In this document: positions 3-25,600 of the stretch, in pieces
Position numbering within the stretch: position 1 is the first letter of the stretch
Layout of the letters: every line of letters starts with the position of its first letter
Source: Candidatus Rifleibacteriota bacterium
GTDB lineage: Bacteria; Muiribacteriota; Ozemobacteria; Ozemobacterales; Ozemobacteraceae
Reading direction: 5' to 3'
Length of the DNA stretch: 34,679 bases
Assembly (NCBI GenBank): GCA_905236865.1
Contig: CAJOQX010000246.1
Coordinates: 1-34,679 of the forward strand
Position numbers and translations under genes: made by a program
The notes under the pieces: generated by a model
Seen by the model: the letters and a program-made list of their open reading frames with translations, nothing else
Told to the model about the DNA's origin: nothing
Database searches by the model: none

Positions 3-887
3 TCAAAGCTTACGGATTATCTTGCGTGCAATAAGATTATTACCGAGTATAAAGGCAGATTAGAAAAAGACCAGAACGATGACATAGCAAACAGGAAAAA
101 GGAATTTGATAAAAAGGTTAATGAAGCTCTGATTCGTGCTTTTAATGAAGTGATAAAATATTCAGCTAAGGAAGGATTAAAAACTTATGAGCTGAAAGAT
201 TACTCATATAATTTTTCCACACAGATAAATACAAATCTGTTGAACGAAATAATTGAGGAAGAATGGATTATAAAGTCTGTTGGCAGAAAACTTCTTGAAA
301 ACATCAATATGCTACCAACTACTGGTTATAATGTTAAGATTAAAGATCTTTACGAAGCTTTTTTGAGATATGACGACAAGCCGATGATTACAGGACAAGA
401 AGCTATAAAAGATACAGTAAACCGCTTCTGCTCAAATAGAACTTTTAATGTGGGAGTCGGCACTGCAACTAAGTTTACTAACATTTATTCAGGTCAGAAT
501 GTTCCATTCTTGGATGTTAATTCTGATGAATATTGGTTGTTAGACCCTTCGGTTGTAATGGAACTTCCTGGAAAAGATGAAAAACCAGAACCAGGAACTG
601 AACAGAAACCCAACCCACCTTCTCCATCTACACCAAAACCGAAACAGGAACCAGAACCTGTAGCAAAGACTTACAATAAAATCATAATTAGTGGTAATGT
701 GCCAATAGAAAATTATTCTCAACTCTTTAGCAGTTTCATTAATACCTTGAAGAATAATAGATTAAAGATAGAAGTGAAGTTTACAGCTTCTTCTACAGAT
801 TCAAACCCACTAATGGAAAACTCGCAATTAATTAAGAGCGTGAAAGAATCAGCATCTCAGCTTGGGCTCAAATTTGAAGAAAATTGA
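3..887 (+). CDS. DUF499-family ATPase-like protein, C-terminal fragment (5' end outside window)
   Basis: The frame of the listed ORF (GTG at 150) stays open to the left edge (SKLTDYLACNKIITEYKGRLEKDQNDDIANRKKEFDKKVNEALIRAFNEVIKYS...). The C-terminal Pro/Glu-rich linker followed by IIISGNVPIENYSQLFSSFINTLKNNRLKIEVKFTA...KESASQLGLKFEE resembles DUF499 C-termini. A helicase gene follows immediately. Confidence 0.7.
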   Translation, partial: SKLTDYLACNKIITEYKGRLEKDQNDDIANRKKEFDKKVNEALIRAFNEVIKYSAKEGLKTYELKDYSYNFSTQINTNLLNEIIEEEWIIKSVGRKLLENINMLPTTGYNVKIKDLYEAFLRYDDKPMITGQEAIKDTVNRFCSNRTFNVGVGTATKFTNIYSGQNVPFLDVNSDEYWLLDPSVVMELPGKDEKPEPGTEQKPNPPSPSTPKPKQEPEPVAKTYNKIIISGNVPIENYSQLFSSFINTLKNNRLKIEVKFTASSTDSNPLMENSQLIKSVKESASQLGLKFEEN

Positions 888-913
888 GAAAGAAGGTTTT
901 CTAAGGAAATAAA

Positions 914-3900
914 ATGATAGAAGAAGGAAACATAGTTAAAAACCTGATAGCTACAGAAGCTGTAACAATCGACAAAATAAAGAAGCTTGGAAGCAAGTAT
1001 TCTTTAAGTTATACAGGGGTAAACTCTTTAAAACGAAGTTCTAAGATAGTCAGTGAAGAGCAGATAAATACTCTAGAGGTTCTAACCTCCGATGGTCAAT
1101 TCAACTTTAAAGGTGACCCAGAAAAATTCGTTTTGTTTGCCGAAGCCGAACGCATTAATTCCGCTTATCAATTTGACCCTCTCTTTGCCATCAACTGTAG
1201 CATTGTAGACCCTTTACCCCATCAAGTAGAAGCTGTTTACAAGTTCCTTCTTCCACAGCCCAAAATCAGATTTCTGTTAGCAGACGATACAGGAGCGGGT
1301 AAAACCATCATGACGGGTTTGCTACTTAAAGAACTGCTTATGAGAAAAATCGTTGAACGAGTATTAATCGTTACTCCTGGCGGTCTTACAAAACAGTGGC
1401 AGGAAGACGAAATGGGAGTTAAGTTTAATATTCCATTCAAGCTGGTAAATCGTGAAATCTTCTCTTCGGAACCCACTATATTTCAAAACAGCGATAGAAT
1501 TGTAGCTTCTATTGATTTTGTTTGTCGAGATGACATTTTACAAATTCTTTCGAAGACAATGTGGGACTTAATAATATTTGATGAAGCTCATAAACTCTCT
1601 GCTTACGAATATGGAGATAAAATTTATAAATCTAAGAGATATGAAGCGGCTTTGACTCTTTCCCAGAACTGCGAACACCTTCTTTTACTAACCGCAACTC
1701 CACATAGAGGGCGTAAAGATACTTTTAAAAGATTACTCCAGTTATTAGATGAAGACATTTTTGCTACTGCCAGCCTATCTACTGAACGAATAAAAGAACT
1801 TAGTATAAACGGAGTAAATAAGTTTTTTATTCGCCGTTTGAAGGAAGATATGAAGGATTGGTCAGGAAACCCATTATATAAGAAGCGTTTTACAAAAACT
1901 GTAGCCTACGATTTAACTAAAGATGAGAAACATTTGTATGACGCTGTTACAGACTATCTTTCTGTTCGTAAACAAGAAGCTTTTGCCACAAAAAATATAC
2001 ATGTTTCTTTGGCATTACAGGTTATGCAACGCCGTTTAGCAAGTTCTATTTTTGCTGTGAGAAATACTCTGCAAAAGCGTTGGTTGGCTTTACAGGGCTT
2101 AGCAGACGAATTAGACAAGAATCCAGCTATTTGGAAACAACGTGTCAAATTTGACGAAATGGAAGTTTCAACAATAGATGATCTTGATGAATTAGACGAT
2201 CAGGAACGTGAATCATTGGATAATATTATGTCTGATCCAAGAAAATTCAAGTTGTTTACTACATCTAAAAGCCCATTAGAGATTAAAGAGGAAGCAAAAC
2301 AGGTAAAAGCTCTTTATGAAATGGCTGATAATCTGTATAACCAGAAACAAGAAGAGCAGAAATATATTGAGTTAAAGAATCTGCTACTTTTTCAGGGAGT
2401 CTTAAATGGCGAAAAGCTTGTAATTTTCACCGAACACAAAGACACTTTGCTTTATCTGGAAGACAGGCTTACCAATAATGGCTATTCTGTAGCTACCATT
2501 CATGGAGGAATGTCTGTAGATGAGCGTAGAGAGTCTCAGTGCAGGTTTATGACAAATGAAGTTCAAATTCTTATTTGTACTGATGCCGCCGGAGAAGGTA
2601 TAAATCTTCAATTCTGCAAGCTGTTGATAAATTGGGATATTCCATGGAATCCAAATCGTCTTGAACAACGAATGGGACGTATTCACCGCTATGGACAGAA
2701 ATCTGATGTTATTGTTTTCAACATGGTTGCAAGCAATACCCGTGAAGGACAGGTTTTAAAAAAGCTTCTTATAAAGTTAGATACAATTCGTGAACAGCTT
2801 GGTGATGACCGTGTTTACGATGTAATACAAGATGTTTTAAAAGGAATCTCACTTGATGATATTATTTCATCTGTTTTGAATGGAAAAGAAAGTGAATTAG
2901 ATTTATTTATAGATAAAAGTTCTAAAGATTTAGGTGATATTTTTGTAAACTCTATTAAAGAGCAAAACAACGCTATTGCTCATTCAGAAATAGATTATAA
3001 AGATGCTAGAATTTTAAAAGAAGATAGTGATGAACACCGTTTACAGCCAATTTACATAAGGCAGTTCTTTGAAAAAGCTTTTAAACAGCTTGGTGGTAAG
3101 TATAAAGAAGTTGAAGAGGGGATTTTCCAAATAACTTATATTCCTGACATTCTCGTTAAAAGGTTGAAAGAGGAGTATCGTATCTATGCAGATAATCTGA
3201 CCAGGCTATATTTCTTCTTCGACAAACAGAAGTTTTTAGAATATCAAAATACTACGGCAAAGTTTGGAAAAGCTCATTATATTAACCCTGGGAATGCTCT
3301 TTTTGATTCTCTAATTTATACTATTAGAGACAAATATCGTGAAGAAATGCTTAAAGGCACCATTCTTGTTTCACCAGAAGATTCAAAGCCTTTTTTTGCA
3401 TATTTTATAAAGAATCAGATACAGGACAACAGGCCTACACAAAGTGGTGAGCCAAATGTGGTAAACGAATTGCTCTCTTTGGTCTGTCAGAATGAAGATT
3501 CTTCTTTTTATCAAACTTCACCAGCAAAACTATTAGACTTGGTTGCTCCAAATGAGTTCGCAAAAGAGATAACTCCACCACAGCCAGCTAAGGAAGATGA
3601 AGTGCTAGAATGGAGTTTTAACAATCAGACTGAGCCATTGTTAAAAAGCACTGAAAAAAAAGTTACAGAAGATATTAAAAACCGTCGTGAATACTTAGAA
3701 ACAGCTTTCCAACAGCTATTTATTGATTTACAGGGCGAAATTAACGAATTACAGGATAAAATTCTATATGTAGATGATGAAAAGATACAGCAGAAATTGA
3801 TTAATAAAGAATCACGGCTTGAAGAAATGAAAGTCAGACGTAAAGAGCGTCTTGAAAAGCTGGATTCTATGGTTGAGGTATTCCCTACAGAACCAGAGGT

Positions 3901-4333
3901 TTTGGGTTGTGCTTATGTAGTGCCATTAAATCAAGTTGAATATCGAAAGAATTATGGAATGAGCCGTGACGATGAAGTAGAAGCCATAGCGATGAAGATA
4001 GTAATGGATTACGAAAAAGCTAATGGTTTTCTTCCTGAAGATGTTTCTAGTAAAAATCTTGGTTATGATATTAAAAGTATTGATTCAGATGGAAACAAAC
4101 GTTATATCGAAGTTAAGGGGCGTTCAGGAATTGATGGCGTAATGCTCAGCGAAAATGAAATGAATAGACTTTCACAGTTAGGAGAAAAAGCCTGGATTTA
4201 TATAGTTGCCAACTGCAAGGGCAAACCTGAGCTGGCTAGAATTCAAAATCCAGCAAACAAACTATCTTTTGAACGGAAAACCAAAGGGGTGCAGTTTTAT
4301 TTGCCACTAGAGGAGTGGCAGCAAAAAGGCTGA
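914..4333 (+). CDS. SNF2/DEAH-type helicase with C-terminal DUF3883-like domain (DrmD/Hma-like)
   Basis: Walker A LLADDTGAGKTIM, DEAH box (IIFDEAH), TATPHRG, and motif VI QRMGRIHRYGQ. C-terminus GYDIKSIDSDGNKRYIEVKGRSG...WIYIVANCKGKPEL is DUF3883-like. Confidence 0.9.
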   Translation: MIEEGNIVKNLIATEAVTIDKIKKLGSKYSLSYTGVNSLKRSSKIVSEEQINTLEVLTSDGQFNFKGDPEKFVLFAEAERINSAYQFDPLFAINCSIVDPLPHQVEAVYKFLLPQPKIRFLLADDTGAGKTIMTGLLLKELLMRKIVERVLIVTPGGLTKQWQEDEMGVKFNIPFKLVNREIFSSEPTIFQNSDRIVASIDFVCRDDILQILSKTMWDLIIFDEAHKLSAYEYGDKIYKSKRYEAALTLSQNCEHLLLLTATPHRGRKDTFKRLLQLLDEDIFATASLSTERIKELSINGVNKFFIRRLKEDMKDWSGNPLYKKRFTKTVAYDLTKDEKHLYDAVTDYLSVRKQEAFATKNIHVSLALQVMQRRLASSIFAVRNTLQKRWLALQGLADELDKNPAIWKQRVKFDEMEVSTIDDLDELDDQERESLDNIMSDPRKFKLFTTSKSPLEIKEEAKQVKALYEMADNLYNQKQEEQKYIELKNLLLFQGVLNGEKLVIFTEHKDTLLYLEDRLTNNGYSVATIHGGMSVDERRESQCRFMTNEVQILICTDAAGEGINLQFCKLLINWDIPWNPNRLEQRMGRIHRYGQKSDVIVFNMVASNTREGQVLKKLLIKLDTIREQLGDDRVYDVIQDVLKGISLDDIISSVLNGKESELDLFIDKSSKDLGDIFVNSIKEQNNAIAHSEIDYKDARILKEDSDEHRLQPIYIRQFFEKAFKQLGGKYKEVEEGIFQITYIPDILVKRLKEEYRIYADNLTRLYFFFDKQKFLEYQNTTAKFGKAHYINPGNALFDSLIYTIRDKYREEMLKGTILVSPEDSKPFFAYFIKNQIQDNRPTQSGEPNVVNELLSLVCQNEDSSFYQTSPAKLLDLVAPNEFAKEITPPQPAKEDEVLEWSFNNQTEPLLKSTEKKVTEDIKNRREYLETAFQQLFIDLQGEINELQDKILYVDDEKIQQKLINKESRLEEMKVRRKERLEKLDSMVEVFPTEPEVLGCAYVVPLNQVEYRKNYGMSRDDEVEAIAMKIVMDYEKANGFLPEDVSSKNLGYDIKSIDSDGNKRYIEVKGRSGIDGVMLSENEMNRLSQLGEKAWIYIVANCKGKPELARIQNPANKLSFERKTKGVQFYLPLEEWQQKG

Positions 4334-4356
4334 AAACCTTTTTTAACAAAAGAAAA

Positions 4357-5175
4357 ATGAACAAACAAGAATACAGAAACTTAATTGATAGATTTTATGA
4401 ATATATAAGTAAATTCAGAGATTCAGACAACAAATTGTGTAATATGCTGAATGAAAAATTAGAACACATAAAACGTGTGGCTTCTAATGCTGTTTATATT
4501 GCTAAAAATGAAAGATGGTCAGATGATGACTGTTTGATAGCCGAAATTTGTGGTTTATATCATGACATAGGCCGTTTTTCACAGTATAAAAATTACAAAA
4601 CTTTTTCAGATTCAAAATCTATTAATCATGGACAAGAAGGTTATGAAGTAATAATTTCTAATAATTTATTTGATATACTAGACGACAAAGACACACAAAT
4701 AATATTAGATGCCGTTCATTTCCATAATAACTTGAATATACCTACGGACTTGTCTGATGATTCTATACGTTTCACAAATTTGACAAGGGATTCAGATAAA
4801 ATAGATATTTTTTTTATGCTTACAGAAAGTATAAAAAACAACAGTATAAAAGAACATTCCGATTTACTTTGGAATCTTCCTATTGGTGAACCAAACCCAG
4901 TTATAATAAAAAAGCTTATGAATAATTCACAAGCTTTATATTCAGATATAAAATCTGGAACAGATGTCTGTTTACTTCAACTTTGCTGGTTATACGGAAT
5001 GAATTACAAATCTTCATTAACAAAGCTCAAAGAAAACCAGACATTAGAATTTTTGGCAAGTTTATTGCCTCAAACAAAAGAAATACAAGATTGTTTGGAA
5101 CATATAGACAGGTATTTAGGGAGAAGAGAAGAGAAGAGAGGAGGGAGAAGGGAGAAGTTGAAAACTGAAAACTGA
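4357..5175 (+). CDS. HD-domain phosphohydrolase
   Basis: H (EHIKRVASNAVYIA), HD (CGLYHDIGRF), H (AVHFHNN) and D (RDSDKIDIF) are all present. ATG at 4357 preferred over the overlapping GTG at 4315. Starts 23 bp after the helicase gene on the same strand. Confidence 0.8.
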   Translation: MNKQEYRNLIDRFYEYISKFRDSDNKLCNMLNEKLEHIKRVASNAVYIAKNERWSDDDCLIAEICGLYHDIGRFSQYKNYKTFSDSKSINHGQEGYEVIISNNLFDILDDKDTQIILDAVHFHNNLNIPTDLSDDSIRFTNLTRDSDKIDIFFMLTESIKNNSIKEHSDLLWNLPIGEPNPVIIKKLMNNSQALYSDIKSGTDVCLLQLCWLYGMNYKSSLTKLKENQTLEFLASLLPQTKEIQDCLEHIDRYLGRREEKRGGRREKLKTEN

Positions 5176-5177
5176 AA
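5119..5177 (+). repeat. Degenerate purine-rich repeat, 7-bp phased (gagggag/aagggag/aagttga/aaactga/aaactga/aattttt)
   Basis: Read directly; overlaps the 3' end of the HD CDS and encodes its tail GRREEKRGGRREKLKTEN. Confidence 0.75.
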
Positions 5178-5183
5178 TTTTTC

Positions 5184-5243
5184 TGGATGGACTTCGTTTT
5201 GCTTTCAGCAACGCCACGGCGTTTTCAACGCCTCGCAATGACG
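5184..5243. repeat. Hairpin-containing intergenic repeat unit ending CTCGCAATGACG
   Basis: GGCGTT-TTC-AACGCC stem-loop followed by CTCGCAATGACG. Confidence 0.6.
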
Positions 5244-5261
5244 AATTAATTTTGGATGACA

Positions 5262-5296
5262 GTGAGACGCGAGACAATTTAAGAGATGAGAGATGT
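5262..5296 (+). repeat. Heptamer-phased repeat gtgagac/gcgagac/aatttaa/gagatga/gagatgt
   Basis: Read directly; five consecutive 7-mers in register. Confidence 0.5.
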
Positions 5297-5300
5297 AAAC

Positions 5301-5339
5301 TGGATTGCCACGCAGTCTAACGACTGCTCGCAATGACGG
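5301..5339. repeat. Hairpin-containing repeat unit TGGATTGCCACGCAGTCTAACGACTGCTCGCAATGACGG
   Basis: GCAGTC-TAAC-GACTGC stem-loop; shares the CTCGCAATGACG end with 5184-5243. Confidence 0.65.
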
Positions 5340-5372
5340 TAAATTATAAGGTAAGAATTGAGAGTTGGGAGA

Positions 5373-5389
5373 GAGCCTAACGGCTCTCG
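5373..5389. repeat. Short hairpin (G)AGAGCC-TAAC-GGCTCT(C)
   Basis: GC-rich stem with a TAAC loop, the same loop as the hairpin at 5301-5339. Confidence 0.6.
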
Positions 5390-5403
5390 TTGTAAGTGAT
5401 GAT

Positions 5404-6143: not shown

Positions 6144-6620
6144 ATGTCAGGTAAAATAAAAATAATAATAATCATATTAGTAGTACTTCTCATTACTTTA
6201 GGTATTGGAGCTATTGCTTATATAGCTTCAAAGAAAGCCACTACTGGCGGTCCGAATGTTGATCCTCCGCCTCCCACACAGGAACAAATTAATAATGCTA
6301 ATAATGCTCCTAAAATGGGACGTTTTGACTTAGGTGAGTTTACAGCTAATACAAGAGATGAAGAACTTCATTATATTAGGCTTCAAATAGAAATTGGCTA
6401 TGTTGGGCAACTAGAAAACGAACTTGAAGAACGTAAGGCCGAATTGCGCGACAGAGTTAACAATCATCTTATGAAGCTTAATGCTCAGCGTGCAAAAGAA
6501 GATTATGTAGATCATTTTATGCACAAAGATTTGGAAAGAGAACTTAATAATGTTTTAGGAAGATCAACTTCAGAAAGTAGAATTATTCAAGTAGTTATAC
6601 CTACTTTCTTAATTAATTAA
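6144..6620 (+). CDS. fliL: Flagellar basal body-associated protein FliL
   Basis: N-terminal TM helix, then FDLGEFTAN...RLQIEIGY...LERELNNVLG...VVIPTFLIN; first gene of the flagellar cluster. Confidence 0.85.
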   Translation: MSGKIKIIIIILVVLLITLGIGAIAYIASKKATTGGPNVDPPPPTQEQINNANNAPKMGRFDLGEFTANTRDEELHYIRLQIEIGYVGQLENELEERKAELRDRVNNHLMKLNAQRAKEDYVDHFMHKDLERELNNVLGRSTSESRIIQVVIPTFLIN

Positions 6621-6652
6621 CCTAAAAATTTTATTCTCGTTGGAATTATTAT

Positions 6653-7807
6653 ATGATTGACACTCTGAGTCAAAATGAAATAGATGCTTTATTGTCAGCA
6701 TTGCAACCTACTGATGATGCTCTCCCAGGAGGAGGAGCTTCAGGCACGAGCAATAATGCATCTGATTTAAATGATTTTAGCAGTAACAATTCAAACAATT
6801 CCAGTAACAATCCGAGTAGCCCGCCACCATCTAGTAGCGAACCAACTACTACTCATGGGAAGAAAAAAGGCAAAGAAAAACCTTATGATTTTAGACGTCA
6901 AACAAAGTTTTCTAAAGAACAGTTAGGAACGCTTGAATTAATTCATGCTTCTTTTGCACGTTTGATAGGAACAGATATTTCTACACGTCTAAGATTAGGG
7001 GTGACGGCAACAACCATAGCGGTCACCCAAGAAACTTTTGAAGAATTTATAAGTTCTATTTTTCCACCAACTTTTATAACAATTTTCCGTTCAGACAGCC
7101 TTGATGGTCAAGCTTTGATTCAAATGGATCTAAGCATTGTATTCTCAATACTAGACCGTTTGTTAGGTGGTAACGGAGCCCCATTATCTACCCTTAGACA
7201 GCTAACTGATGTTGAAAAGCAGATAATGCAGAAAATAATGGTTGGCATTATAGATAGACTCCGTGAAGCTTGGATCAACGTAATTGATTTAATGCCTGTT
7301 ATAGAATTGGTCGAATCTAATCCGCAGTTTGCTCAAATAGTTCCACCAAACGAAGTTGTAGTATCTATCAAGTTTGAAATTAGTTTGCTTGATACAACAG
7401 GTTTACTAAAATTATGTATTCCTTATAGTACTGTAGAAGATATCACTCAAAAATTTAATGCAGCATCATGGTTCGCTTCTGTTGCGGTAAGAAAAGAAAG
7501 TGAATCAACAAAAGCCAATGTCGATATAATTACAAAACAAGTAAAAGAAGTAACTTTGCCCGTAGTTGCCGAACTCGGTCGCGGTGTTTACCCACTTGAA
7601 GATTTAGTAAATATGAAAGTAGGGGATACGCTAATAACCGACCAACTTGTAAAAAACGATATTAAAATTAGAGTCGGAAATCAAGTTAAATTCAATGGTA
7701 GAACAGGCAAAAAAGGCAAAAAGATGGCGGTCGTAATAACTAAAGTTTTAGATCCGCCAAATAAAAATTTTATAGAAGAAGAAGAGGAGGAGGATGATTT
7801 AACGTGA
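6653..7807 (+). CDS. fliM: Flagellar motor switch protein FliM
   Basis: N-terminal [13 protein letters not shown] peptide, [14 protein letters not shown], FliM core, C-terminal SpoA-like domain; Asn/Ser-rich linker after the N-terminal peptide. Confidence 0.95.
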
Positions 7808-9105
7808 GCGGTGATGGCGTTCTCTCACAAGAAGAAATTAATGCACTTCTTGGTGGCGGATTAGAAGACATGAGTAGCTCTCCTAATTCTGAGCCAATTA
7901 CAAACTCTGCTCCAATACCTAATGGAAGCACGAGATTTACCCAAGAAGACATTAACCAATTAACAGAAGTAGCTAAACTTTCATTAGGAGCTACATCTTC
8001 TGTCGTTCAAATGTTTGTAAATCAACCGAACGCAGATATTGTTCTTGAGCAAGTCAGACTTATTTCTTATTCTGATTTGGTTCAAGAATGTGGTGACGAA
8101 GAGTATTTAATTCTAAAAATTTCTTATACTGAAGGTTTTAGCGGAGTAACCTACCTGTTACTGAAAAAGAATACTGTTGCAATCATAGGCGATTTAGCAA
8201 TGGGTGGCTCTGGGGTAGATGTCCAGTTTGAAGAAATACATATTTCTGCAAACCAAGAAATGTTAAATCAAATGATGGGCAAAACTACAACAAGTTTAGC
8301 CGAAATATTCAAGAAGAGGGTTGACATATCTCCGCCTACAGCTTCAATGGTTCGTTTCAATCAAGAAATTCCACAAGATATGACGGATTTTCATGAAGGA
8401 ACAGACTTTTTAAGAATAGGTTTTAGTATTAAATTAGGCGATGTAGCAACAACCGAAATGCTACAATTAATACCAGCGGATTTTGCATTACTGATGGCAC
8501 ACGAACTAAATAAACCTAAAGAACCTCCAAAACCTCAACCACAAACTCCACCGCAAATGCCTAATATGGGGCAAATGCCACAACAGCCTATGCCAGGGCA
8601 AATTCCTGGTCAGATGCCTAATATGGGTATGCCTGGACAAATGCCGAACATGATGCCTAACATGATGCCCGGACAAATGCCTAACATGATGCCTAATATG
8701 GGTATGCCCGGACAAATGCCTAACATGATGCCGAATATGATGCCTGGACAAATGCCTAATATGGGTATGCCTGGACAACAACCCAATATGTTCCAAGCTA
8801 ACCCAGCCGAATTTAATATGCTTCAAATGACTCAATCAATGGGTTTACAATCGAATATAGACCTATTGCTTGATGTTCCACTTGAAATAACAGTTGAATT
8901 AGGCAGAACAAGAATGTTAATAAAAGATGTTCTTGAATTAGGTATAGGTTCTGTAGTAGAGTTAAATAAGTTAGCGGGTGAATCTGTTGAAGTTTTTGTA
9001 AATAACAAACTAATAGCTAAAGGCGAAGTAGTTGTTATTGATGAAAATTTTGCAGTTCGCATTACAAATATAATCAATCCTCAAGATAGATTACAGGCTC
9101 TCTAA
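7804..9105 (+). CDS. fliY: Flagellar motor switch protein FliY/FliN (CheC-like domain plus FliN domain, Met/Pro-rich linker)
   Basis: GTG start overlapping the fliM stop; [12 protein letters not shown]; CheC-like middle; [50 protein letters not shown] (FliN). Confidence 0.9.
8557..8790 (+). repeat. In-frame repeat encoding [17 protein letters not shown] motifs
   Basis: Repeated atgcc(t/g)aacatgatgcc.ggacaa units inside fliY. Confidence 0.9.
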
Positions 9106-9121
9106 GGAGACTTCCTTTTAT

Positions 9122-9484
9122 ATGGGAAAAACAATTTTAATAGTTGATGACGCAGCTTTTATGCGTATGATGATTAAAGACATTCTATCGAAGAACGGTT
9201 TTGATATTATTGGTGAAGCTCAAACAGGAAAAATCGCTGTTGAGCTTTATCAAAAACTCAAACCTGATTTGGTAACAATGGATATTACTATGCCAGAAAT
9301 GAATGGTATTGAAGCAGTTAAAGCCATAAAGAAGCTAGATCCATCCGCTAGAATCATTATGTGTAGTGCAATGGGACAGCAGGCAATGGTTATTGATGCT
9401 ATTCAAGCTGGTGCACGTGACTTTATTGTTAAACCATTCCAACCAAATCGTGTTATTGAAGCAGTTCAAAAAGCTCTTCGATAA
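9122..9484 (+). CDS. cheY: Chemotaxis response regulator CheY
   Basis: Single receiver domain: ILIVDDAAFMR, DLVTMDITMPEMNG, IIMCSAMGQ, DFIVKPF. Confidence 0.92.
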   Translation: MGKTILIVDDAAFMRMMIKDILSKNGFDIIGEAQTGKIAVELYQKLKPDLVTMDITMPEMNGIEAVKAIKKLDPSARIIMCSAMGQQAMVIDAIQAGARDFIVKPFQPNRVIEAVQKALR

Positions 9485-9501
9485 AAAGAGAAATAAAAAA
9501 A

Positions 9502-10350
9502 ATGAATAAGTCTTTAAAAATTTTTTTGCTGTACATATTTGTGTTTATGACAGAATTGTTCTGTTGCCAGACTGTTTTAGCAACAGATTCAGATGTAATT
9601 TCTTTACCAATAAATAATTCTAATGCGGCAAAAAAATATATAAAAGACACTAAAACAGAAGAAACAGAAGATTTCATTATCTCTTCAAATAAAATTAAAA
9701 TAAAAGAAGAATTTAATGATTCTGCGACAGATTCAAGTAAACTTGCCACAGTTGAAGAAACAAATCTTCAAACAGTTAATGCTTCTCAATATACAAATAC
9801 TATAGACGATGGATCTTTACCTCTTTTTTCAACAAGACCATCGAACGCTTCTGCGACAGGTTTTATTCCTTCTGCTAATGCAATGACTTCAACCCTAAGT
9901 CTGATAACTTCTTTAATAGGTATAATAATTATCGCACTTGCAATTTCTTGGTTTATTCAGAAAAAAACAGGTTTTGGTGCTAATAATTTTGGAAAAGTTC
10001 TAGGCATAATTCCACTAGATAATAGAAGATTAATCTATATTGTTTATGTCGCTGGTAAAATTATTGTGTTAGGAGTAACAGAAAGTAATATAAATTACCT
10101 TACTGAAATAACTGATAAAGACACAATAGATACCTATAAACTAAAATACAAATTGACTGCTACCGAACTAGACAAAAATTTTCCTTTTCCAACGACAACA
10201 GATACTAACAATAAACCAAACAACAACATAAACAAAAGCGAAGAAATAATCAAACTTGAAACAGAAAGAAAATCAGAACAAATTAAAAACGAAATAGAAG
10301 AAGAACGTTTAAGTCGTCAAGAACGTTTAAATAATCTCATTATTAAGTAA
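9502..10350 (+). CDS. fliO: Flagellar biosynthesis protein FliO
   Basis: Signal peptide, TM segment ALAISWFIQKK, then LGIIPLDNRRLIYIVYVAGKIIVLGVTESNINYLTEI; lies directly before fliP. Confidence 0.8.
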   Translation: MNKSLKIFLLYIFVFMTELFCCQTVLATDSDVISLPINNSNAAKKYIKDTKTEETEDFIISSNKIKIKEEFNDSATDSSKLATVEETNLQTVNASQYTNTIDDGSLPLFSTRPSNASATGFIPSANAMTSTLSLITSLIGIIIIALAISWFIQKKTGFGANNFGKVLGIIPLDNRRLIYIVYVAGKIIVLGVTESNINYLTEITDKDTIDTYKLKYKLTATELDKNFPFPTTTDTNNKPNNNINKSEEIIKLETERKSEQIKNEIEEERLSRQERLNNLIIK

Positions 10351-10363
10351 GAGAAATAGGGTA

Positions 10364-10399
10364 TTGACATATTTAAGTCAAATAGAGTAAATTTTCTAG
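10364..10399 (+). promoter_or_regulatory. Candidate promoter/operator upstream of fliP (TTGACA with TTGAC-N8-GTCAA inverted repeat)
   Basis: TTGACATATTTAAGTCAAATAGAGTAAATT; close relative of the sequence upstream of the 22647 lipoprotein gene. Confidence 0.35.
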
Positions 10400-10438
10400 A
10401 AAATTAGAATATTACTTAGGCAAATAAAAATCCATATT

Positions 10439-11299
10439 ATGCACCAATTTAGTAAAAAATCATTATTTTTGTATGTACACTTTTTTATAGTGATTTCATT
10501 TTTTTTACTCTTTGGTTCTGTATCGGCAAATGCACAACAATCAAGAGGAAATGCCAGAGTAAACATAAACGACAACACAAGAATAGACCGAACTCCCAAC
10601 GATAGCACACCTTTTCCAATACCTGCTATAACAATACAAGTTGACCCATCACGAGAAAGAAGTCAGATAGGAACAACATTACAAATATTAATTTTATTTA
10701 CAATTTTAAGTCTTGCACCATCTATTTTAATAATGATGACAAGCTTTACTCGTATTTTGATTGTTCTGAACTTTGTAAGGCGTGCATTAGGAACAAACAC
10801 AGAACCAAGTAACCAAATATTAATCGGTCTTGCTCTATTTATCACATTTTTTACGATGCACCCTGTCATAGACAGAGTTTACAATGAAGGAATAAAGCCA
10901 TACATCGACAGAGAAATAGATTATGTTGAGTGTTATAATCGCTCTATAAAACCTATCAGAACTTTTATGTTTAAACACGCTAGAGAAAAAGATTTACAGC
11001 TTTTTGCGGAAATGGAAGGTGCACCTAAACCCAATACCCGTGATGATTTCAGTACAATAGCCCTTATATCAGCATTTATAACAAGTGAATTAAGAACAGC
11101 TTTTCAGATGGGAGTTGTAATATATTTACCTTTTTTGGTCATAGATATGCTTGTATCAAGCGTGTTAATGGCAATGGGGATGATGATGCTCCCACCAGCT
11201 ATGATTTCTTTGCCTTTTAAGTTGTTGCTTTTTATACTGGTAGACGGTTGGAATCTTGTTATAAAATCTTTGGTAACTAGCATCGCAGGAGGAGGTTAA
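10439..11299 (+). CDS. fliP: Flagellar type III secretion protein FliP
   Basis: LSLAPSILIMMTSFTRILIVLNFVRRALGT...PSNQILIGLALFITFFTM...FLVIDMLVSSVLMAMGMMMLPP. Confidence 0.97.
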   Translation: MHQFSKKSLFLYVHFFIVISFFLLFGSVSANAQQSRGNARVNINDNTRIDRTPNDSTPFPIPAITIQVDPSRERSQIGTTLQILILFTILSLAPSILIMMTSFTRILIVLNFVRRALGTNTEPSNQILIGLALFITFFTMHPVIDRVYNEGIKPYIDREIDYVECYNRSIKPIRTFMFKHAREKDLQLFAEMEGAPKPNTRDDFSTIALISAFITSELRTAFQMGVVIYLPFLVIDMLVSSVLMAMGMMMLPPAMISLPFKLLLFILVDGWNLVIKSLVTSIAGGG

Positions 11300-11300
11300 T

Positions 11301-11573
11301 ATGAACGAATATGTTGTATTAGGACTATTAAAAGAAACATTCTGGATTTGTATATTATTGACCACACCAGTTCTGCTCATTGGTATGTGCGTTGGTATTC
11401 TTATAAGTATAATACAAACAGCCACATCTATACAAGAACAGAGTTTAAGCACTGTACCCAAACTAATAATCACAATTTTATCTATAATGGGAATGTCAAA
11501 ATGGATGCTTGGTTATATGATTGACTTTGCCACTAGATTATTAGGTTCTTTAAATACTTATGCTGCGATGTAG
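11301..11573 (+). CDS. fliQ: Flagellar type III secretion protein FliQ
   Basis: 90 aa with two TM helices; VGILISIIQTATSIQEQSLSTVPKL; lies between fliP and fliR. Confidence 0.95.
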   Translation: MNEYVVLGLLKETFWICILLTTPVLLIGMCVGILISIIQTATSIQEQSLSTVPKLIITILSIMGMSKWMLGYMIDFATRLLGSLNTYAAM

Positions 11574-11592
11574 CAGAGTATAAATAAGCATT

Positions 11593-12378
11593 ATGACGGA
11601 AGCCGCTTTTTTAAATGGAGTAGGATTATTCCTTATTTCGCTAGTGCGTTTTAGCGGTTTTTTTCTTATCACTCCTGTTTATTCAGACAACTTAGCCCCA
11701 ACAAGAGTCAAAGCTGGACTTAGTGCTCTTTGTGCACTTTTAATAGTTCCTCATTTGATGGCAACTACTAAGCTACCAAATTTAAGTATTTTTGGATATG
11801 GAATAATGGCTGTTAGAGAGCTAATTCTAGGTTTTATGCTTGGTTTTGTCGTATTGTTCATGAGTTCCTGTTTGAGATTTGGCGGAAACATTATCGGTAT
11901 GCAAATAGGTTTTTCGTTTGCCCAAGTAGCCGATCCTGGTTCTAACCAAAGTGTTGGGCTTATCTCAGAAATATTGCAGTTATCTAGTTCATTACTCTTT
12001 TTATTTTTCAATGGTCATTTAATCTTACTGCGTGCTTTGTTTCAGAGCTTTTCAATGGTCTCCCCTGCAGGACTAGTTTTAACAAATGGGGTTATAGAAG
12101 AAATACTATTATATAGCAGAATGATTTTTATCTGCGGTTTACAAATATCTATGCCTATTATATCTGTAATTTTAGTTAGCGATGTGGCATTAGGTCTTAT
12201 TGCTAGAACTGTCCCCAAAATGAATGTATTCCAATTAGGATTTGCAGTAAAAGTAATAGGTGGATTTATTGTTATCTATTTCTTCATTTATTCTCTTGCA
12301 GATGTAATCAGATCTCTATTAGAAGCAAGCTTAGATGAAGCAATGCTACTTTTAAAGCATTTAAACGGAACACCATGA
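11593..12378 (+). CDS. fliR: Flagellar type III secretion protein FliR
   Basis: Multi-TM protein: LVRFSGFFLITPVYSDNLAPTRVKAGLSALCALLIVP; RELILGFMLGF; GNIIGMQIGFSFAQVADP. Confidence 0.95.
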   Translation: MTEAAFLNGVGLFLISLVRFSGFFLITPVYSDNLAPTRVKAGLSALCALLIVPHLMATTKLPNLSIFGYGIMAVRELILGFMLGFVVLFMSSCLRFGGNIIGMQIGFSFAQVADPGSNQSVGLISEILQLSSSLLFLFFNGHLILLRALFQSFSMVSPAGLVLTNGVIEEILLYSRMIFICGLQISMPIISVILVSDVALGLIARTVPKMNVFQLGFAVKVIGGFIVIYFFIYSLADVIRSLLEASLDEAMLLLKHLNGTP

Positions 12379-13508
12379 GTGAAGAATCATATTTAAATAA
12401 GTACAATAACTATATTAAAGTTTCAGAAATACCTTTTGACTTGCAAATGTTTGCAGGTGAAAAGACAGAAGAAGCTACCGACAAACGTAAAGAAGAGGCT
12501 ACAAAAGAAGGTAACGTAGCAAAATCGCAAGATTTAGGCTCTGTAATCATATTGTTAGCTGGTTTTATGATGCTTAATTCTTACGGGGAAAAAATATTCA
12601 ATCATTGTGCCAATTTTATGCGTTATTCCTTCACCCAAACACTAGTTACAAATATTGCTTTTGGCGAGGCTATAGATATTTTTACACAATTTATAATTGT
12701 TGTATTAAATGTAATTTTACCTTTTATGATTGTAATAGTTATTGCTGGAGTTATAGCCAATGTTCTTCAAGTAGGCTTTCTTTTCAGATTTGACCCAATG
12801 ACTCCTAATTTTGACAGAATGAACCCTGTTTCAAATATTCAAAATATGTTTTCATGGAAGATGGTAGCAGAATTAGTAAAATCAATTTTAAAAATACTTA
12901 TAGTAGCATATATTCCATATTCAACCATAAAAGAAAGATTGGCTGAATTTGTAGGCTTTTTAAAAGCAAATCCAATGCCTTCTTTTGGAACAATGCTAGA
13001 AGTTTGTTATACAATGGCGATAAAAATCATTATAATCTTCTTGATACTTGCTATAGCAGACTATTATTTTCAGAAATGGCGACACGAAGAAGGTTTGAAA
13101 ATGTCTAAAGAAGACATAAAAGAAGAACATAAACAATCTGAAGGAGACCCTCACGTTAAACAAAAAATACGTGAACGACAGCGTCAAGCTTCCCAACGCC
13201 GTCAGATGGATGAAGTACCAAAAGCAACTGTTGTTGTTACAAACCCAACTCATATTGCTGTCGCAATCAAGTATATTCCAAATGAAACCCCAGCCCCTTT
13301 AATTGTAGCAATGGGAGCAGATTTACTAGCAAAAAAGATTAAAGAGATTGCTCGCGAAAACAATGTTCCAATAGTTGAAAATAAACCTTTAGCAAGAGAA
13401 TTATACAAGAAAGCTACAGTAGGAGATGAAATTCCTCAAGAACTCTGGACAGCAGTAGCTGAAATACTTGCTCAAATTTTCAAAAATAAACAACAAAGAG
13501 CTGCGTAA
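12375..13508 (+). CDS. flhB: Flagellar type III secretion protein FlhB
   Basis: FAGEKTEEATDKRKEEATKEGNVAKSQDL; autocleavage NPTH motif (VVTNPTHIAVAIKY); ATGA overlap with fliR. Confidence 0.97.
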   Translation: MSEESYLNKYNNYIKVSEIPFDLQMFAGEKTEEATDKRKEEATKEGNVAKSQDLGSVIILLAGFMMLNSYGEKIFNHCANFMRYSFTQTLVTNIAFGEAIDIFTQFIIVVLNVILPFMIVIVIAGVIANVLQVGFLFRFDPMTPNFDRMNPVSNIQNMFSWKMVAELVKSILKILIVAYIPYSTIKERLAEFVGFLKANPMPSFGTMLEVCYTMAIKIIIIFLILAIADYYFQKWRHEEGLKMSKEDIKEEHKQSEGDPHVKQKIRERQRQASQRRQMDEVPKATVVVTNPTHIAVAIKYIPNETPAPLIVAMGADLLAKKIKEIARENNVPIVENKPLARELYKKATVGDEIPQELWTAVAEILAQIFKNKQQRAA

Positions 13509-18312: not shown

Positions 18313-18424
18313 TATTAAAATTATATCTAAAATTTTTAAATCTCACTTTCTAATAATTCTTTAATAATTTAGCAATTGCTGTTATACTTATGTGTACGCA
18401 ATTTTATTTGAGGAAGGTATATCT

Positions 18425-21400
18425 ATGAAAAATAGCCATATTTGGGGTTTGCTTACGATACTTGTAGCAACCACGCTATTTATTGGTTGTGGTTCTGCTT
18501 CAGATGATTTAACTGATTTTAGAAATTCAAATGATTCTAATGATCTTGTAACTTTTACAAATAAAGTAACAGCTAATAATTCTGCATCTGTTAGATTAGC
18601 TTCTAGAATAAGATTTGCTACAACTTTAACTGATTTATCTGGAATAACAGTATTTCTTGAACAAAACGGAGCACAACTTAATGGTGTTTTACCCGCCCTT
18701 ACAGACAATAGAGGTGTATATACACTTTTCAATGTTCCACAAGGTAATCATACAATAGTAGCTCAGAAATCTGATGGTGCTGGCGGATTTGTTTTCAGAG
18801 CACGACAAGAAAATGTCCCTATAGTTGTTCCTTCAGATAGTAATGAAAAAGTAGTTGATTATGTAGAATCAGCAAATGACCAATACGTTATGACTATGGA
18901 GCCATCGAATTATTCATTAGATATAGTTGTAACAGATAATGATGGTAATCCTTTAACAAATGGAAAAAATGGATTATCTGTATTCTTATGGGGAATAGAT
19001 TATGCTTTTAATAATCCAAATTCAAACACAATTTCCCTAAAAGATTTTCCTGAAACAATTGCAACTGCAACAATTTCTGCAACAGGTTTTAAAACCACTG
19101 TAATCCCTGTAGAATTTGGCGAAAATTATAATTCTGTAAAACAAATAAAACTTTTAAAAACTACTGAAAATATTAATCGTGCTCCAATAGTATCTATCAC
19201 TTATGATACAGATACTTCCACTATAGATAGAGATTTTAACGATATACTTACGATAAATCCTAACAGATACCTTTATTTAACAGCAACAGGTTATGATGCA
19301 GATGGAGATTCTATATCTTATGACTGGTCTGCTACAAGTGGTATTTTAAACAAAATAAGCAATAATAAAGCAACTTTTATTGCCACACAAACCTATAATC
19401 AAGTTATAATCACACTTACAGGCACAGATAGCAAAAACGCAATAGGTAAAGCAGAACTAAAACTTTCTGTTTCAGGCGGAACTATTCCTATCGCAACAGG
19501 AACTACACCAGTAGCCTCCGACACTCCAGATATTGCTTCTGGAACTGAAACTATCGGTTCTGACACTTCTGATATAGGTTCTGGAACTGAAACTATCGGT
19601 TCTGACACTTCTGATATAGGTTCTGGAACTGCTCCTATTGGCTCTGATACTTCTGATATAGGTTCTGGAACTACACCTATTGGCTCTGACACTTCTGACA
19701 TAGGTTCTGGAACTACACCTATTGGTTCGGACACTTCCGATATAGGTTCTGGAACTACACCTATCGGTTCGGACACTTCCGATATTGGTTCTGGAACTGC
19801 TCCTATCGGCTCTGACACTTCTGATATAGGTTCTGGAACTGCTCCTATTGGTTCTGACACTTCTGACATAGGTTCTGGAACTGCTCCTATCGGCTCTGAC
19901 ACTTCTGACATAGGTTCTGGAACTGAAACTATCAGTGGTAATGATTATTCATCTCTATTAGAAAATCCTGGAAATTGGTTTGATATTAGAGGAGCTTCAA
20001 TTAGTTTAAATGATGTATATGATATTTCATCTATTTTCTCTTCTTTAAGAACAGAAAATGCATATTTTGATGAATATAATGCAGAAACTGCAATTAATAT
20101 TGATTTAACAGAAAAGACAATATCTCCAGCAGAAGCAGAAGAATATGTTTCTTTTGATGAGGAAGATAATACATTAACAATCGAAGCTGCTGGAACTTAT
20201 GTCCTTTCAGGAACTCTAAATGGTCAAATAAGTATTCCTGAAGAATTAACTGATGGCGTTACTCTAGTTTTAAATGGTGCCACAATTATAAGTCAAACAA
20301 ACGCAGCAATATACAATGTAAATAAAGTAACACCACTTAAAGTATTGTTGATAAGCAAAACTACAAATACGTTGATGGATGCAACTTCTTACATTTATGA
20401 TGAAGGGTCTGAAAATGAACCTAACGCTTGTTTATTCTCTAACGGTGATTTAATAATAACAGGTAATGGAACTCTAAATGTCACTGCAAATTGTACTGCT
20501 GAAAATCAAGAATCTGATGGTATTTGCTGTAATGGTGACAATGGTATGATAATTACCGCTGGAAAAATAAATGTTTCTTCAGATGGTGCTTCTGCTATAA
20601 ACTGCCAATCATCATTAGTAATAGATACTTCATCACCGATAGTCTTGTCTTCTAAAGGCAATGGAATATTAACTCAAGGTGACATCTACTTTAAATCCTC
20701 AAATTTAACAATTACTTCTGATTGTGGAAATGCAATAATCTCTGAACAAGCAGTTTACTTTGACCAAGATGCAACAGTCGATGTTACTGCCAATGGTGAT
20801 GGTATACTAGCTAAAGAAAAACTTCTTGTAACAGGTGGTAATATTACTGTCGCTAATAATCCTAATACAAAATATGATATTGAATTAGAAAGTAGCAAAG
20901 GTTTGGTTTCCGATTCAATTCATATCTGTGGTGGAAAAATAAAGATTAGTAGCAATGACTGTGCAATTTATAGCGAAGGAAATATTGATATAAGCGGAAA
21001 TCCTGCACTAATAATTTCGCCTTCTAATCAAGTTTTAAATAACATAGATGAACTTGAAGATGGAAAAGGAATCTTAGGTAAAGGCGAAGTAACTATTGGT
21101 GCAAGTGGAACTCCTATAATACGAGTTATTTCTGCTGAAAATGCTATTCAAAGTGAGACAAATCTCACCATAGCAGGAGGCGATATAAAAGTTTGCTCGC
21201 TGGAAGATGGTTTGAATGTAGGAGGAGAAAAATCAAACTCCAAAGCCATAAATATTTCAGGTGGTGAAACTTATATTTATGCTAAAGGTAATGGTGTAAA
21301 TTCGATTGGAAATATTGGTATTACAGGTGGAACTTTGGTTATAAATCAAGATTCAAATAGTAATTCAACTTTTAATGCTGAAGGGTCTTTCTCATTCTCT

Positions 21401-21802
21401 GGAGAAACTCTAATTGCTGCTGGAAATAAAGGAATAGGCAGTGATAAAACAAATTCTGGTTCAGCTAATTTCCTGAAAATACACACTAATGGACTTCCAA
21501 AAGGTAAATTAATAAATATTCAAGAAGATAATGGAACTTCAATTATTACATTCGCCCCAACTCAAAATTCTGAAATTATTGAATTTGGTACTTCATTGCT
21601 AACAACTGGCAATACTTACAACATATATGTTGGAGGAAATTCAACATATACAAATATCAATAATGGAATTTTCTATGGAGGAGCATATTCAGCAGGAACT
21701 CTACTAGGTAGTGTAACTATTGATAATTCAACAAAAACTTATACTATAGAGCCAAAAACAAGTTCTAGTAGTTCTGGCACCACTCAAAAAAAATGGTTTT
21801 AG
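18425..21802 (+). CDS. Lipoprotein with PKD/Ig-like region, SD/GT-rich repeat linker and C-terminal carbohydrate-binding beta-helix-like domain (Cthe_2159-like)
   Basis: MKNSHIWGLLTILVATTLFIGC lipobox; DADGDSISYDWSATSG PKD-like; C-terminal GTYVLSGTLNGQISI...VTLVLNGATI...GDLIITGNGTLNVTAN...DGICCNGD... resembles the Cthe_2159 family. Confidence 0.8.
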   Translation: MKNSHIWGLLTILVATTLFIGCGSASDDLTDFRNSNDSNDLVTFTNKVTANNSASVRLASRIRFATTLTDLSGITVFLEQNGAQLNGVLPALTDNRGVYTLFNVPQGNHTIVAQKSDGAGGFVFRARQENVPIVVPSDSNEKVVDYVESANDQYVMTMEPSNYSLDIVVTDNDGNPLTNGKNGLSVFLWGIDYAFNNPNSNTISLKDFPETIATATISATGFKTTVIPVEFGENYNSVKQIKLLKTTENINRAPIVSITYDTDTSTIDRDFNDILTINPNRYLYLTATGYDADGDSISYDWSATSGILNKISNNKATFIATQTYNQVIITLTGTDSKNAIGKAELKLSVSGGTIPIATGTTPVASDTPDIASGTETIGSDTSDIGSGTETIGSDTSDIGSGTAPIGSDTSDIGSGTTPIGSDTSDIGSGTTPIGSDTSDIGSGTTPIGSDTSDIGSGTAPIGSDTSDIGSGTAPIGSDTSDIGSGTAPIGSDTSDIGSGTETISGNDYSSLLENPGNWFDIRGASISLNDVYDISSIFSSLRTENAYFDEYNAETAINIDLTEKTISPAEAEEYVSFDEEDNTLTIEAAGTYVLSGTLNGQISIPEELTDGVTLVLNGATIISQTNAAIYNVNKVTPLKVLLISKTTNTLMDATSYIYDEGSENEPNACLFSNGDLIITGNGTLNVTANCTAENQESDGICCNGDNGMIITAGKINVSSDGASAINCQSSLVIDTSSPIVLSSKGNGILTQGDIYFKSSNLTITSDCGNAIISEQAVYFDQDATVDVTANGDGILAKEKLLVTGGNITVANNPNTKYDIELESSKGLVSDSIHICGGKIKISSNDCAIYSEGNIDISGNPALIISPSNQVLNNIDELEDGKGILGKGEVTIGASGTPIIRVISAENAIQSETNLTIAGGDIKVCSLEDGLNVGGEKSNSKAINISGGETYIYAKGNGVNSIGNIGITGGTLVINQDSNSNSTFNAEGSFSFSGETLIAAGNKGIGSDKTNSGSANFLKIHTNGLPKGKLINIQEDNGTSIITFAPTQNSEIIEFGTSLLTTGNTYNIYVGGNSTYTNINNGIFYGGAYSAGTLLGSVTIDNSTKTYTIEPKTSSSSSGTTQKKWF
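19514..19933 (+). repeat. Ten 42-bp tandem repeats (consensus GSDTSDIGSGTxxI; first unit degenerate)
   Basis: Read directly from DNA and protein; 10 x 42 bp in frame. Confidence 0.95.
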
Positions 21803-22601: not shown

Positions 22602-22646
22602 ATCAGATAAAATTAATAATAAAAGTTGAATCCGTGGGGGCAAATC

Positions 22647-25600
22647 ATGGCGGAAAATAACCGCAAATACACTATCTTAATGCTTGTTATCGCCTTAATA
22701 GGGGCAGTTATATTTTATGGTTGTGGATCTGCAACCTCTGATAGAATTCCAGATCAAGAGTATTCTATTTCAGGCTCATATTCATCACCAGGCTTATCAA
22801 ATGAAGATTTAGTTTCTACTCGTGCTGTTTATGGACCAACAAAGAATATTTATATTTATTCTGAATCAGATCCTAATAATTGTGCTGATATTGATGAAAC
22901 TAAAAGAACATTTATTTTAAAGAACTTAAAGCCAGGTAATCATTATTTAGTTTTTAAATATTTGCCTTACGGTTCAGATAGAGGAGATGCCCCAGTATAT
23001 ATATATAGAACCTCAAATCCAATTGTTTTAACAGAAAGTGCACCATCTAAAGAAATAAGCGAAAAACTTGCAGGAGTAGAATGCGATAGTGTTGTTTATG
23101 GTAAATTAACTAATGCAGCAGGACAACCGATTAATCCAACTCCGAGCCTTACTTTATGGGGACAAACTATCGAAGTAAATGGTTTGACAGGTGAATTTGT
23201 AACTCCTAAAATGCCTGGTGGAACTATTGCTAGTTTAGTTGTTGAAGCAGTAAATTATAGAAATACTTCAACACCTATTGAATTCAATCCAAATCCAGCT
23301 TATTATGAAATAAGTGCTGTAGAAACTACAAGCAACAATGTCCCACCTATCATTTCGTTAACTTCTAAGAATTCACAATACAATATCAAATCTGTTGTTA
23401 CCTTAACAGCAGTTGCAGAAGATGCCGATGGCGATGATTTAGAATTTGAATGGACAATAGATAGTTGTACTTCTCCAAACCAAGGTTATATGGAATTGTC
23501 AAGAGAAGAAACCAAAGGTTCATCACATATTAGTGAATATTATTGGAATGCACCTGAAGAAGACTGTCTAGCCACTATCTCTGTAAAAGTTACAGAAAAA
23601 TCGACTGCTAAATTGACTGCTAAAGCTAAATTAAAATTACAAATAGGTACTGGAAATTATAGCCCAAGCTCAAAACCTTATTTTGTTAGCACAACCATTT
23701 ATCCAGATGCTCCATATTATGGAAACAGAAAATATACAATTACCGCTATAGCAACAGATTCAGATGGAGATATTTTAACTCAGACTTTAGTCATTAAACC
23801 TAATGGTGGTATTTTAAACCAAACTAATCAAAATACTTGGGTATGGACTACAGAAGACTTAGAAAAAGCTAAAACTTATACAATGTTTTTTGAAGCAAGA
23901 GATATGAAAAAAAATGTAGCCAGTGTAACATTAGAAAACATTGTTGTTAATCCGACAAGAGCTAATTTACCTCCAACTGTTGTTAGTCAATCTCCTGCAG
24001 TTTCAACAATACAAGAAGTTACCAGCGGTGCTTCTATCACTTTAGTTTTAAAGGCAGATGATCCTGAAAAAGAAAAATTAGAATTCAATTGGAACAACAG
24101 ATTAGGACAACTAAAAGAATCGTCAAACAATAACGACACTGCCTCTGCAACATGGGTAGCTCCGTATATAAATGTAGCAACAATTACTTATATTACTGTT
24201 AAAGTAAATGACCCTGAACCTAAATATGTTACAGCTACATTTACCATTAAAATTATTCCAGATCCTAATAAAAAAGCTCCTAACGTTGAAATAAAAGTTA
24301 CAGGAACCAGCGATACTCACAACGGAATACCTCTTTTCAAAGCTGGCGAAACAGTAACATTCCACGGTTTGGCCACTGATACAAACAGAAATCTTGCTAT
24401 AGATCAAAGTCATTTTACTTGGTATTTAATTGACCCAAAAGGGACTTCAAAACAAATAGCAAATAGAACAAATACAGCAAACTATACAATTAACAATAAT
24501 TCTGAACAAGGCAATTATCTAATAAAATTATCTGCAATAGACTTAAACGGTATTACTGGTGACGGAACAGCCGATTTCAGAGTAAATAAACCACCAGTAG
24601 CACAAATAATCTGTAATGATAAAGCAATAGGAACATCTGGAAGATGTGAAGGTTACACAGAATCAGATTATAAATATACTTCTAGTAATGGTACTGATTA
24701 CGATGTCTATAATATAGACGATAAATTAAAGCTTGTAGCTAGTGCTACAGATGAAGAAACTCCATCATCTGTATTAGAAGTTAATTCGATTTGGCAAATT
24801 GATGGAACAGCATTTTATGGAAAAGAACAAATAGCAACCTTAACAAAAGGCGGATTAAATACTATCTCTCTAGTCACTAGAGATTCAAAAGATATTCTTT
24901 CAGCTAGTTCAACATACTCATTCTATGTTAATACTGCTCCAACTTTTGATATAGCCACAACCACAAAAAATAGCTTCATTAATTCTGACAGTATAAACAT
25001 GAATATAAAAATAACTGATGATGTAAAAATTGCTTCGTTAGCTATATTTATATCTAGAAAGAGTGCTGGAGATGCTAATTATTCTGAATACGAATTATTT
25101 AATATAAGTGGTGTAACTAACCCAGTTATTAATTTTGGAGAAAAGACTTATAATAAAAATATTCCTATATTAGCTAGCACATTATTGCCTACAGGAACTG
25201 ATTTTAAAATAAAAATAATTGCAGAAGACGATATGGGAGTAACCAAAGAAAGCATCGATGATATAAAATTTTCAATAGTTGAATCACATTTGATAAAAGA
25301 TTTTGTAGTTGCTAGTGGTACTTACAGTGAAAATCAGCGTCCTTATACTTTTGACGAACTAGAAGTATTAGAACCGTTAGTAGATTCTATAGTAGATGGT
25401 GTAGTAGCTTCTTATGTTTTTGAAGCAAAGCAAAAGTTTTCTATAAGAAGTGGTTCTATCGATAAAGAAGGGAAAACCAAATGGCAAGACGATATGGATT
25501 GGCTTTGGTATGACTCTTTTTGGGATAATGGAAAGCCTGGTAATTTTACAAGAATTGGTAACCAATACGTAGACAACTACACTTTAAACGGATACTCAAT

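Follow-up and report, generated by a model that had tools for sequence, protein, structure and literature searches.

The Hma system was first named in the PADLOC paper (PMC8565338), and in newer naming it is the Type-1 DUF499-centred BREX-related (BR) system (PMC12839542). BREX type 3 (BrxC, BrxXI, BrxHII) has ATPase and helicase cores homologous to those of Hma, and in usual Hma systems the methyltransferase HmaB would shield the DNA of the host (PMC12839542). The gene order HmaA-HmaB-HmaC is usual rather than defining for Hma/Type-1 BR. Hma is not covered in a preprint on YprA helicases.

The window analyzed here is the complete contig C246 (34,679 nt) of the genome of a Candidatus Rifleibacteriota bacterium (G000; 3.56 Mb, 440 contigs, 78.6% complete, with about one fifth missing), and it begins inside HmaC. 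Three consecutive open reading frames occupy its left end, all on the + strand (3-887, 914-4333 and 4315-5175 in the ORF list). A preliminary description had proposed a DISARM/Hma-like defence operon at this place, made up of a DUF499-type ATPase C-terminus, an SNF2/DEAH helicase with a DUF3883-like tail and an HD-domain hydrolase as third component, with a methylase predicted upstream. The frames are close together on one strand, as described there. The features are as follows:

3..887, + strand: C-terminal part of HmaC (DUF499 ATPase), about 290-294 aa; 5' part truncated by the contig start
914..4333, + strand: HmaA, SNF2-type helicase with C-terminal NOV_C/DUF3883-like PD-(D/E)XK nuclease domain, 1139 aa (PADLOC, full-length relatives)
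1283..1306, + strand: HmaA Walker A DDTGAGKT, residues 124-131 (conservation in 86 aligned HmaA)
1580-1591, + strand: HmaA DEAH box (conservation in the same alignment)
3977..4240, + strand: HmaA NOV_C/nuclease domain, residues 1022-1109, with D1052, E1066 and K1068 (Pfam NOV_C)
4357..5175, + strand: HD-domain phosphohydrolase, resident lineage gene, judged to be outside the Hma system (Pfam HD)
G000:C276:1-801, - strand: HmaC N-terminal piece (HmaC protein query of G000)

The HmaC and HmaA genes

When the frames were searched with PADLOC and Pfam profiles, as the preliminary description had suggested, the second frame matched HmaA over residues 2-1099 (PADLOC, 5.2e-204). Its Pfam domains are ResIII, SNF2, Helicase_C and NOV_C (1.2e-20), the last of which corresponds to the DUF3883-like tail, so this part of the description was borne out. 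The protein thus has both the SNF2 helicase and the C-terminal PD-(D/E)XK nuclease by which HmaA is recognized, and it is 72-75% identical over its full length to HmaA of Prevotellaceae. The helicase motifs Walker A, DEAH and VI are intact, and so are the nuclease residues D...ExK, as in nearly all of 86 homologues: the G, K and T of Walker A are conserved in 85 of the 86 aligned proteins, D, E and H of the DEAH box in all 86, and the nuclease D, E and K in 85 each.

The first frame alone gave no significant Pfam or PADLOC match. It aligns over its full length, however, with the C-terminal ~290 residues of Bacteroidales HmaC (42-50% identity; 48-50% for the Prevotellaceae copies), which bore out the earlier view of it as a DUF499-type C-terminus. 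The HmaC of locus L118 (1110 aa) matches it with residues 817-1107 at 49% identity, reaching the conserved C-terminus, and this full-length copy is recognized as HmaC/DUF499 by PADLOC (1.2e-151) and Pfam (1.4e-39). When G000 was queried with full-length HmaC, exactly two pieces were found, one at the left end of C246 and the other, corresponding to residues 1-272, terminating contig C276. Both are open frames. A Swt1-like HEPN domain with the motif RNKCQH was recognized in the N-terminal piece (5e-6; its 27.2 bits are slightly below the cut-off of 27.5), and C276 stops just short of the Walker A region. The two end pieces display what is expected of HmaC, a DUF499 ATPase often with an N-terminal HEPN domain; ~545 residues (~1.6 kb) of HmaC, with the ATPase core and Walker A among them, are unassembled. 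A Pfam DUF499 search of G000 gave no match because only the terminal pieces are assembled. The simplest reading is that C276 and C246 carry opposite parts of a single putative HmaC gene.

Judged by these sequences, HmaC and HmaA are a predicted Hma-type defence locus, a known kind of anti-phage operon. The likeness to Hma/Type-1 BR lies in the helicase-nuclease with its intact motifs and in the HEPN-DUF499 protein; the differences are the order HmaC-HmaA, an HmaB that was not found and an HD neighbour that is not shared. DISARM, the other half of the original assignment, was rejected on the curated DrmD thresholds. The helicase core of HmaA is a distant relative of DrmD, but the NCBIfam DrmD models NF038317 and NF038318 reached only 376 and 218 bits where their cut-offs are 610 and 950, respectively, and in PADLOC the HmaA model outscores every DrmD model on this frame. 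To our knowledge, a DUF499 ATPase is not a DISARM component. BrxH models of BREX type 3 also match this HmaA (2e-108). The HmaA model nevertheless scores 678 bits compared to 362 bits for BrxH, and the frames neighbouring the Hma genes on C246 are unlike further BREX genes.

The HD gene and its surroundings

The third frame encodes an HD-domain protein (Pfam HD, 1.7e-7). Its start is probably ATG 4357, the position at which the nearest orthologues begin, and not GTG 4315; with this start it does not overlap HmaA and lies 23 bp behind it. Residues H37, H69-D70, H91, H123 and D145 are invariant in 11 relatives, in line with the intact H/HD/D residues reported earlier. The AlphaFold model is all-helical and confident (mean pLDDT 91), and its best fold matches in the PDB are HD hydrolases (2qgs, 2pq7) and the HD-GYP protein 4mcw, with E-values no better than 0.003. 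Since this fold search returned HD phosphohydrolases, none of them with E < 0.001, and an HD profile search of PDB sequences only weak dGTPase-like matches, no substrate can be named.

The preliminary description had suggested that the HD enzyme could be an effector and third member of a variant operon. The gene stands on the same strand as HmaA, its active-site residues are intact, and neither scan nor fold revealed a terminator in the 23 bp gap, so that co-transcription with HmaA is possible. However, when conservation beside the helicase was checked in other genomes, an HD homologue was found in the DNA around HmaA at 0 of 80 Hma loci. Clear relatives are encoded by 12 of 23 further genomes from the genus and family, including two congeners (64% and 60% identity), and a profile detected one full-length copy per genome in 7 of 7 genomes, the other matches being weak, partial and to longer proteins. 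In the two congeners the orthologues adjoin housekeeping-type genes (for NFACT and for an MscS channel), Hma is absent there, and these neighbours differ between the two, so the place of the gene is not fixed in the genus. We rejected the effector role on the basis of these neighbourhoods and consider it very improbable. The HD gene is judged to be an ordinary resident chromosomal gene of the lineage and not an Hma component, and there is no new three-part defence system at this place. The preliminary description had itself listed what would speak against it, namely the lack of any methylase or other defence gene upstream, or a conserved housekeeping HD gene apart from the helicase in relatives. 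For the three-component claim this is largely what was found; the Hma identification is left standing.

Downstream of the HD gene, a flagellar operon (6144-13508, fliM/fliY-type genes onward) is syntenic with congeners from 6144. The genes upstream of this operon differ in the relatives checked (G001, G003 and G008), indicating that on C246 a boundary, due to rearrangement or insertion, separates the Hma/HD block from fliL. Short repeats with 'tcgcaatgac' motifs occur in the spacer between the HD gene and the next gene (5130-5400), and the HD frame seems to run on into a purine-rich repeat over its final ~15 residues. Further along, 18392-21802 and 22626-27695 encode two very large proteins with weak PKD-like matches in both; the former also has a Cthe_2159 carbohydrate-binding domain.

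Gene order, methylase and relatives

On C276, a divergent gene lies ~170 bp upstream of the HmaC N-terminus, which we take from reading its sequence to be mnmA (tRNA thiouridylase); it is followed by what is presumably, read in the same way, a PfkB-kinase-like gene. This mnmA is 79-82% identical to the genes of two congeners, which assigns C276 to this lineage. Should C276 and C246 carry parts of the same HmaC gene, the order would be mnmA (reverse)-HmaC-HmaA-HD. A gap of 26 bp separates the HmaC stop from the HmaA start, and the two genes terminate at conserved termini.

On this reading, the DNA upstream of position 1, where a DUF1156 methylase had been predicted, would hold the N-terminus of HmaC and then mnmA, with no HmaB adjoining the Hma genes on either side. 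A profile of nine HmaB proteins found no match in the incomplete G000, and neither did a protein search; the same profile was positive in six Hma-bearing control genomes (three sources of the relatives and three of the same phylum). As about a fifth of the genome is missing, the absence of HmaB is likely, not certain. Among the relatives, HmaA-HmaB-HmaC lie in this order on one strand in each of the 49 in which the three genes are all visible, and HmaC was upstream of HmaA in none of the 69 that offer 1 kb or more of DNA ahead of HmaA. C246, in contrast, reads HmaC-HmaA. The ATPase-helicase order without an adjacent methylase is the sole unusual feature of the locus.

A scan of 84,980 species genomes yielded 80 kept HmaA loci, mostly from Bacteroidota. 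In the tree, HmaA of C246 is placed inside a clade (100/100) that otherwise contains only Prevotellaceae and unclassified Bacteroidales. A further 39 genomes from the phylum yielded no close HmaA, their best full-length proteins being 33-36% identical. Horizontal acquisition is the natural inference, and the locus was probably acquired from gut Bacteroidales. Plasmid matches to HmaA are only 30-34% identical, and scans of viral contigs detected relatives of neither HmaA nor the HD protein.

Several Bacteroidota Hma operons (L084, L095, L097, L099, L101, L103, L104, L105 and L128) carry other defence genes inside. This cargo matches PADLOC models for AbiE pairs, AbiU, Septu PtuA, HEC-01, HEC-05, PDC-S01, PDC-S02 and NsnAB, and its recurrent slots are the HmaA/HmaB and HmaB/HmaC intervals. 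One Prolixibacteraceae Hma locus (L087:2005-9280) is without HmaB and consists of HmaA, an AbiE pair, an HNH-type gene and a 191-aa HmaC fragment.

Competing explanations and predicted function

We consider it highly probable that the left end of C246 is a Bacteroidales-derived Hma locus, with HEPN-DUF499 HmaC followed by HmaA, and that the HD protein is an unrelated resident phosphohydrolase at an insertion or rearrangement boundary. The unusual order could also be an assembly artefact, either at the HmaC-HmaA junction or in the link between C276 and C246, with an ordinary HmaA-HmaB-HmaC operon as the true locus. The fragmentation into 440 contigs and the two contig ends inside HmaC would fit such an error. 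The junction, however, joins two complete gene ends and does not fall within genes, the HD gene with its orthologues in the genus and the congener-like mnmA tie both contigs to this lineage, and searches of G000 gave a single HmaA and a single set of HmaC pieces. We therefore regard an artefact as quite unlikely.

The locus may instead reflect the degradation of a system, or a variant that does without the methylase. Decay after transfer, with HmaB lost, the order scrambled and remnants without defence function, is a serious though minority possibility: the methylase was not found, the gene order is unusual, and L087 has AbiE and HNH genes at the expected site of HmaB and only a fragment of HmaC. 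A full-length HmaA with all motifs and two HmaC pieces in open frames are at odds with it. An Hma variant with ATPase-helicase order and no methylase would refine the preferred explanation, that of a Bacteroidales-derived Hma locus, and not exclude it. Such a variant would discriminate self from non-self without HmaB or self-modification, for example by infection-dependent activation of HmaC. It would account for the 26 bp gap between conserved termini, the divergent mnmA ~170 bp before HmaC, an HmaB profile empty here and positive in the controls, an order seen in no relative with enough upstream DNA, and the intact HmaA motifs. HmaB could nevertheless sit on missing sequence, the part of HmaC with Walker A is unassembled, and only a single such locus was seen; we hold the variant to be unlikely, and recognition of foreign DNA without self-modification just as unlikely.

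For the preferred reading, mechanistic steps can be inferred from the published model (PMC12839542). HmaC would most likely sense or assemble on invading nucleic acid via its winged-helix and RRM parts, and HmaA would most likely translocate on foreign DNA and cut it with the C-terminal PD-(D/E)XK nuclease. The HEPN domain of HmaC may serve as an RNase of last resort or suicide back-up (PMC12839542). The locus would then be restriction-modification-like in a putative protective role. Since the methylase that is normally part of Hma was not found, the system may be inactive.

Taken together, these results remove the false lead of an HD effector and point to a Bacteroidales-type Hma locus that has probably spread into another phylum. 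The absence of the methylase, if real, would make one ask how a helicase-nuclease system of restriction-like type avoids attacking its own genome.
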